From Fibrobacter sp. (GTDB lineage: Bacteria > Fibrobacterota > Fibrobacteria > Fibrobacterales > Fibrobacteraceae): a stretch of 62,518 bases of DNA. Shown here one piece after another: positions 775-27,378 of the stretch. Numbering within the stretch: position 1 is the stretch's first letter; each line of letters opens with the position of its first letter. Both the position numbers and the translations under genes were made by a program. The notes beneath the pieces are model-generated. The model searched no databases and was not told the origin of the DNA. It saw only the letters and a program-made list of their open reading frames with translations. Where the stretch lies: NCBI GenBank assembly GCA_024399015.1, contig JAKSIC010000017.1, positions 1 to 62,518 of the forward strand, written 5' to 3'.

Positions 775-803
775 TTGACGGGCGTTTGTTTTTTGTATAG
801 ATT
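775..803 (+). promoter_or_regulatory. candidate promoter of the DUF1016 leader
   Basis: TTGACG (775-780) and TAGATT (798-803) are separated by 17 bases, which would start transcription near 810, just ahead of the first hairpin of the leader. The TAGATTTAT string is also present at the equivalent place in front of the second leader copy (26215). Confidence 0.45.
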
Positions 804-820
804 TATTTCGAATTTGCAAT

Positions 821-915
821 CCGGCTTGCGAGCCGGGAGTTAAACTATCAGCCTGACGGTCGCGGCGTCTCCCTTTTGGGCTTTGCCGCAGGGTACCTGG
901 GTAAGCGCTACCCGG
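821..915 (+). ncRNA. structured 5' leader RNA, copy A (upstream of DUF1016 nuclease)
   Basis: Three helices can be drawn. P1 is CCGGCT/AGCCGG (821-826/831-836) closed by a UGCG tetraloop. P2 is GCGGC/GCCGC (862-866/885-889) holding an inner CCC/GGG hairpin. P3 is a 7-bp stem (897-903/909-915) with loop AGCGC. Between P2 and P3 lies AGGGTACC. The same architecture and core recur at 26235-26333 with compensatory changes. It lies between a plausible promoter and the GTG start of the nuclease gene, so it is probably a cis-acting leader. I could not assign it to a known riboswitch class. Confidence 0.6.
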
Positions 916-26214: not shown

Positions 26215-26220
26215 TAGATT
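26215..26220 (+). promoter_or_regulatory. -10 box of leader copy B
   Basis: TAGATT inside AGATTTATGTC, the same string that precedes leader copy A. No good -35 is visible (CTGTTT is the best at 17 bases). Confidence 0.3.
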
Positions 26221-26234
26221 TATGTCATTCTCAT

Positions 26235-26333
26235 CCGGCTTACGAGCCGGTCGTATAATTCTCTGCTTGCTGTTCGCGGCACAGTTTCTTAAACTGCACA
26301 AAGCCGCAGGGTACCTGGATAAGCGCTATCTGG
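26235..26333 (+). ncRNA. structured 5' leader RNA, copy B (upstream of Rpn nuclease)
   Basis: Same architecture as 821-915. P1 is CCGGCT/AGCCGG (26235-26240/26245-26250) with a UACG tetraloop. P2 is GCGGC/GCCGC (26276-26280/26303-26307), holding a CAGTTT/AAACTG hairpin in place of CCC/GGG. P3 is a 7-bp stem (26315-26321/26327-26333), loop AGCGC. Relative to copy A, P3 has a G-C to A-U change and a G-C to G-U change. GCCGCAGGGTACCTGG is identical in both copies. The remaining 124 bases before the ATG carry further short hairpins. Confidence 0.6.
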
Positions 26334-26457
26334 ACACGTAACGTAGGGCTCCAAAAGGAATCCTTAAAACTTTACATGTTTCTGGCCTTGCCTCATTGGG
26401 CAAAGCCTCCTTTTACTACACAAAATTTAACGCGCCCTTTAGGACGCAGAGGAAATA

Positions 26458-27378
26458 ATGAACATTTCATTGTTGCATGATCCCTTTTGTAGGGATGTTT
26501 TATCTGATGTCTCCACATTTCTTGAATTTGTGGAATACTTGACTACTCGTGATGAAGAACTGAAGTCTGTTGTTGATTTGCTGGACCGGGAATCGTTTGA
26601 ACGAATCCCTGGCGACTATAGTGATACGAAAAGTCACGGCTATGCGGACTTAGCGTTTCTGGCCAAGGTAAAGAAGGAATGTCTGTCTAAAAAGAAGATT
26701 CCTGTCCAGGTTTGTGTGGGATTCTTGCTGGAACACAAGTCGTGGCCTGATGATGGTGTCGTAGATCAGTTGATCAGGTATCACTATCACTTGATGGTAG
26801 AAAAGCTGAAAAAGAATGCGGACAAAGGCATTCCCTCGGTGGCAATTATTTTGTACAACGGAACAGAATCTTGGAATCCTCTTGACGAAACATATTCTGA
26901 CTATCCCAAGGCGTTGCGGAGTATTCTGCTTCCCTTCAAGTGTGTCTTTCTGGATGTTTCGACTGTTCCCGATGACAGGTGCCTGAATGAATTTACCCCT
27001 CGGCTGGGCGCGTTTATTGGTGCTTTGAAATACGCACGTAATCCAGAGAACCATAGCGATTTCCTGGCGCAGTTGGTAAAAAAGGTTAAAACGTCATTGA
27101 CTGGAAACGAGGCCCTTGACTTACTTACGTCTATGGATGTATATTTTCGCTACTGGATTTCGGAAAACTTCAAGGAGGCATTCAACATGGATTTCGTAAG
27201 ACCGCCATACAAGACGATTCATGACGCAGAAGTCGAAGAAGCCGTTGAAAAAGCGGAAGACCGTTTTGCTGTCCAGACCGCTCTCAAGATGCTTTCGAAG
27301 AACAAACCTATGGATGAAATCATTGAATTCTCGGGCTTGTCCGAGGAGCGAATCCGCTCGTTGCAGCAACCGAAATAA
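26458..27378 (+). CDS. Rpn-family recombination-promoting nuclease / putative transposase
   Basis: A 306-residue member of the Rpn (YhgA-like, PD-(D/E)XK transposase_31) family. It opens HDPFCRDVLSDVSTFLEFVEYL, a diverged version of the usual DxxFK start, then has YADLAF and a beta-strand FLLEHKSWPDDG, carrying the E-x-K of the active site (about residues 95-105). The C-terminus forms a helical tail. Rpn proteins are RecA-independent DNA nucleases in E. coli and in other work act in phage defence. A ribosome-binding site GAGGAA sits before the ATG. Long structured leader upstream and a strong terminator downstream. Confidence 0.85.
   Translation: MNISLLHDPFCRDVLSDVSTFLEFVEYLTTRDEELKSVVDLLDRESFERIPGDYSDTKSHGYADLAFLAKVKKECLSKKKIPVQVCVGFLLEHKSWPDDGVVDQLIRYHYHLMVEKLKKNADKGIPSVAIILYNGTESWNPLDETYSDYPKALRSILLPFKCVFLDVSTVPDDRCLNEFTPRLGAFIGALKYARNPENHSDFLAQLVKKVKTSLTGNEALDLLTSMDVYFRYWISENFKEAFNMDFVRPPYKTIHDAEVEEAVEKAEDRFAVQTALKMLSKNKPMDEIIEFSGLSEERIRSLQQPK

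Follow-up and report, generated by a model that had tools for sequence, protein, structure and literature searches.

The window, a 62,518-nucleotide (nt) stretch of a Fibrobacter sp. genome (GenBank assembly GCA_024399015.1, contig JAKSIC010000017.1, positions 1–62,518), carries two copies of a structured RNA element, each followed by a gene on the same strand, and these belong to a new, previously uncatalogued RNA family of Fibrobacter and its close relatives. Copy 1 spans 818–952 on the + strand, as delimited by a comparative fold and a covariance model. A promoter-like site at 775–803 (+ strand; TTGACG, 17 nt, TAGATT) ends 14 nt 5' of the conserved RNA boundary at 818, while the gene behind the RNA (its cargo, 969–2000, + strand) encodes a DUF1016_N + YhcG_C PD-(D/E)XK nuclease by Pfam, and its product matches the PADLOC candidate defence family PDC-S02 (E = 1.6e-140). 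Copy 2 lies at 26232–26352 (+ strand; covariance model, 130 bits) and precedes a Transposase_31 gene by Pfam, an Rpn/YhgA-like PD-(D/E)XK protein at 26458–27378 (+ strand). The original prediction had proposed a leader RNA upstream of these two nuclease genes; the observation holds, as do both neighbours, and the family, with ~100 copies, is larger than had been claimed.

In the consensus structure, the UNCG hairpin P1 comes first; behind it, the long stem P2 encloses the contiguous arms P3, P4 and P5 and completes a four-way junction with them. The whole module measures ~110–150 nt. On the + strand of copy 1, P1 pairs 821–826 with 831–836 around the loop UGCG (827–830), and the 5' strand of P2 runs from 848 to 861 (UCAGC 848–852, CUGA 853–856, GGUC 858–861). 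The P3 arm (862–889) is formed by GCGGC (862–866) and GCCGC (885–889) below a variable apical hairpin, the P4 arm (890–898) by AGG and CCU around a 3-nt loop, its pairs being invariant in copy 1's subfamily, and the P5 arm (899–913) by GGGUA and UACCC around the loop AGCGC (904–908). The 3' strand of P2 (914–948) comprises GGCU (914–917), GCAG (938–941), a bulged C (942) and GUUGA (943–947), and is interrupted by an inserted hairpin (922–934) found only in some copies. All three helices predicted at the outset exist: the UNCG hairpin at 821–836, the GCGGC/GCCGC stem and the GGGTA-AGCGC-TACCC hairpin. What had been missed is P2, the long stem that brings them together as a four-way junction, and part of its 3' strand (938–948) falls outside the interval of 821–915 quoted for the element. 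Likewise, the hairpin described as a 7-base-pair (bp) P3 exists but has 5 bp in the consensus model, the two outer pairs belonging to P4 and P2. The identical 16-base core, GCCGCAGGGTACCTGG, is exact at 885–900 and 26303–26318 on the + strand, the only two occurrences in the window, and 0.29 matches with up to three mismatches are expected from shuffles. A third exact copy is found elsewhere in the genome (C1:468362), and models R1 and R2 together place seven copies of the structured RNA in this genome. As a search probe across bacteria, the exact 16-mer mainly yields chance matches, and matches of GCCGCAGGGTAACTGG in relatives lie inside a conserved coding gene, which we take to be a gyrase/topoisomerase gene, and not in the RNA.

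Folded singly, the two window copies have energies close to those of shuffles (z = 0.30 and −0.20), and the case for an RNA therefore rests on comparison. In alignment A3, which holds 12 copies after hand removal of the insert hairpins from the window copy, L032, L056 and L058, 95.6% of cells are paired and 13 of the 34 pairs show double-sided changes, while slid controls pair 30–42% (30–49% overall) and none of 500 shuffles reaches the covariation. Alignment A5, with 21 copies that have a different junction interior and were aligned without the A3 set, returned the same four-way topology from RNAalifold unprompted, with 92.1% paired, double changes in 15 of 27 pairs and again 0/500 shuffles; the structures derive from the same sequences used for counting pairs, and the two disjoint sets agree. 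The covariation is significant in both alignments, which bears out the earlier claim that the stems change in a base-pair-preserving way, the mark of a structured RNA. The middle of P2 covaries in the wider alignment (UUGA/UCAA, UUGC/GUAA, UGCA/UGCA, CAUG/CAUG, CAGA/UCUG), and P2 CUCUGC/GUAGAG with its bulged C is conserved. One pair of P2 is G-U in 12/12 and 21/21 sequences and fixes the sense strand, because it would be C-A on the opposite strand. Covariation in a further hairpin, P6 (CCCAC/GUGGG, GUCCAC/GUGGAC, GUCUGC/GCAGAC), was read by eye only, because A6 has P6 shifted by one column. One subfamily (L270, L279–L283, L297–L305) includes many copies with a much longer arm in place of P1, 5' of the conserved core.

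Contiguous four-way junctions with conserved helix-flanking bases are a common ribozyme layout. The same layout is seen here, and it could be speculated that the element is a self-cleaving or other catalytic RNA that trims the 5' end of the messenger RNA (mRNA). However, even a permissive threshold gave no match to any Rfam ribozyme family, and loop and junction bases differ between subfamilies, making this explanation highly improbable.

Searched with a pattern, 111 Fibrobacteraceae genomes yielded true copies together with some coding false positives. The covariance model R1 locates ~100 copies in 50 of these 111 genomes, with up to five per genome, nearly all upstream of a same-strand gene, as the original prediction called for. 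Model R2 matches in 50/168 Fibrobacterota genomes, all within three genera of one family, and in 0/50 diverse genomes and 0/198 genomes from the class of a Bacteroidales genome; no copies were found in the phages, plasmids and viral contigs searched. Rfam 15 reports only a tRNA across the whole window and no credible match to copy 1 or, at E <= 1, to six diverse members, and no family reaches the gathering threshold, so the absence of a known riboswitch or leader family noted originally stands. A short resemblance to the TPP riboswitch (..CGUAGGG..) was rejected, as no Rfam TPP model matches. Moreover, no description of the element was found in published, open-access sources.

The genomic context places the RNA close to a promoter and in constant orientation to toxin-like cargo. 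A -10-like hexamer lies 5–19 nt 5' of the conserved RNA boundary in 62 of 78 dereplicated copies, compared with 4.7% of random positions. Among 100 loci retrieved for context analysis, a same-strand open reading frame (ORF) is called downstream of the RNA in 99, and the first such ORF falls into a multi-member protein cluster in 92. The PD-(D/E)XK cargo that had been predicted makes up the largest classes (62 Rpn-type and 10 DUF1016 loci), but other toxin, toxin-antitoxin and defence-like genes follow the RNA as well, including five Gp49/HigB genes of the HigB-HigA type, three Ntox50, two phosphoesterase and two ORF6N genes and singletons, along with six acetyltransferase-like and two PIN-like genes whose labels were assigned by eye without a Pfam hit. 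The cargo Pfam families are Transposase_31, PDDEXK_2, DUF1016, Gp49, Ntox50, ORF6N, SLFN_AlbA_2 and SocA_Panacea, a Panacea gene standing behind one additional copy in the window's genome. Rpn (COG5464) proteins are described as toxic and anti-phage (PMC10327210). Upstream of some DUF1016 genes without this RNA (L380, L381, L385) stands another conserved block that resembles a leader (GUAACGCCGGGGAAAGCCCCCGCCAAC with its flanks) and may represent a second leader class, and PDDEXK_2 genes without the element at L370 and L371 share yet another upstream hairpin block (UCUGUCUAUGAACCCGACAUUAUCGGGUGUUUUAACAC).

Comparison of related loci shows the gene changing while the RNA stays. L236 and L253 are 97.7% identical across 1996 nt, ending 72–74 nt past the RNA, after which one carries DUF1016 and the other Gp49. 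L226 and L229 share 95.6% identity up to the penultimate base of the RNA and then diverge into PIN-like versus HigB/HigA-type cargo, the 3' end of the former cargo remaining at a microhomology; at L275/L278, Rpn is swapped for AlbA_2 in the same manner. At L206/L207, the flanks are unrelated, and similarity runs from -23 to just past the gene, so that RNA and gene are shared. Because the RNA is retained at orthologous sites while the gene is replaced, it is, as judged from these alignments, a constant module before variable cargo. In an empty-site comparison of the two window loci, the flanks diverge where the units end (near 26216 and 2006), and neither a clean empty site nor a target-site duplication was found. 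The mobile element considered originally as an alternative holds in part, at the evolutionary level, as an RNA-plus-gene unit, or a gene alone behind the RNA, exchanged between genomes.

Such exchange directly behind the element, with remnants of old cargo at the right end, could also be expected of a docking or recombination site acting at the DNA level, like integron attI/attC, where a conserved inverted repeat, as single- or double-stranded DNA, takes up new cargo and the RNA fold is a by-product. The movement of RNA-plus-gene units between unrelated flanks would agree with this, as would some tandem units. At L316, L322 and L314, two RNA-plus-gene units are close neighbours whose cargo is either different or paralogous (Transposase_31 then PDDEXK_2; ORF6N then ORF6N; and, in the window's own genome, a DUF2281-like small ORF and Panacea). 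However, no integrase was seen beside the inspected copies, although no genome-wide integrase search was made, and the attC boxes RYYYAAC/GTTRRRY are not conserved: the left end GTTTAAC is variable (GTTCCAC, GTTTCAC, GTAAAAC), and the right end is AACGTAGAGC and not GTTRRRY, for which an integron attC was rejected. In addition, the right breakpoints examined fall at short microhomologies and not at a second copy, the left ones are explicable by homology of the shared leader alone, and the invariant G-U pair and fixed-distance promoter suit an RNA better. A docking site is therefore an improbable account of the element.

The reading we favour, with somewhat better than even confidence, is a modular cis-acting 5' leader that controls toxin and defence genes. 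Here, a conserved aptamer-like fold lies on the sense strand upstream of a coding region, as in riboswitches, and we infer co-transcription, action in cis and control of expression. The element would form the 5' part of the mRNA leader as an independently folding module, its own promoter driving both the module and the toxin or defence-like gene behind it. Most likely, it would sense a cellular or infection-related signal in cis and set the expression of whichever toxin follows. Alternatively, the 5' domain may be processed off to serve in trans as a guide or antitoxin RNA whose target is the cargo protein or phage nucleic acid. Its compact, strongly conserved fold, its own promoter and the toxin-like cargo would fit such a role, as would joint decay of RNA and cargo at a few loci. 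At L235 and L317, a truncated RNA stands beside truncated cargo (a HigA-like remnant, and a Gp49 ORF cut short near a transposase-like gene), which suggests that the two decay together. A trans-acting RNA is nevertheless unlikely, as eight or more unrelated protein families would have to be targets of a single fold, tandem repeats of the type III antitoxin kind are missing, and in the window copy the stretch separating RNA from gene shows no evident terminator. A type III toxin-antitoxin RNA was rejected on account of the single, non-repeated domain and of cargo from many families other than ToxN-like, and a retron or REP/RAYT element because no reverse transcriptase or Y1 transposase is present among the scanned cargo representatives.

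For the cis-acting leader, the likely switching step would be competition for the 3' strand of P2, CGUAGAGCACC, which may pair either with CUCUGC upstream, closing the junction, or, in one large subfamily, with GGUGYUCURCG downstream. In this PDDEXK_2-type subfamily, CGUAGAGCACC is complementary to GGUGYUCURCG, usually 43–84 nt downstream, and the match is perfect or near-perfect in many copies. P2 and the competing helix are mutually exclusive, with a mean predicted energy gap of 6 kcal/mol, and CACC is retained in 12/13 dereplicated copies with the competing partner versus 22/39 without it (p = 0.02). The conserved competing helix hints at a switch layout in one subfamily. Some copies occlude the start in the predicted fold, e.g., window copy 1, where the loop of a predicted hairpin, CACCACUU/AAGUGGUG (949–974, + strand), contains the Shine-Dalgarno sequence AGGAG (957–961) and the stem takes in the GTG start, a possible block to translation.

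Several observations weigh against a general leader function of this kind. Many copies, among them those of the window, lack the competing helix, and the conserved unpaired positions reveal no obvious ligand pocket. Predicted Shine-Dalgarno accessibility is unchanged by the enforced helix (0.24 with P2 versus 0.23 with the competing helix), and start occlusion is not significantly higher for the leader genes than for other window genes (p = 0.09); because of these two results, no general readout is shown and general Shine-Dalgarno sequestration is not supported. Finally, only a minority of the genus's Rpn and DUF1016 genes carry the element, so the RNA is not required for such genes.

Among known systems, riboswitches and structured 5' leaders likewise combine a conserved fold close to the promoter, ahead of a gene on the same strand, with a closing stem whose 3' strand is shared with a competing downstream helix, the latter feature seen here in one subfamily. 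Unlike theirs, the genes here are unrelated toxins or defence-like genes and not one pathway, and no general expression platform was found. The aminoglycoside-sensing leader of class 1 integron cassettes (PMC7588185) shares the arrangement of a constant leader RNA before exchangeable accessory genes, yet in the present family there is no attC architecture, no integrase was seen beside the inspected copies, and the cargo is toxin- or defence-like where integrons carry resistance genes. Rpn genes, the main cargo here, are reported to spread horizontally and to have variable ends that lack terminal repeats, which matches the present family; in contrast, intragenic antitoxins are reported there, and the abstract and one section of that work do not mention a leader RNA (PMC10327210). 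The likeness to PDC-S02 (DUF1016/YhcG nucleases) concerns the protein family only, and the RNA is missing from the majority of DUF1016 genes in the genus.

Structured leaders normally follow one pathway, whereas here one fold fronts eight or more toxin or defence-like families that are unrelated to each other. It could tentatively be proposed, though we hold this to be rather doubtful, that one RNA sensor class confined to Fibrobacteraceae sets interchangeable, unrelated toxin and anti-phage genes under a common signal, and that new toxins join this 'defence regulon' by recombining behind the RNA. The element provides a sequence signature by which Fibrobacter of rumen and gut can be searched for toxin and defence genes. 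If expression is indeed controlled by the RNA, it would illustrate how newly arriving defence genes that could kill the bacterium are brought safely under a shared control, and the sensed signal would be a new handle on the regulation of phage defence.
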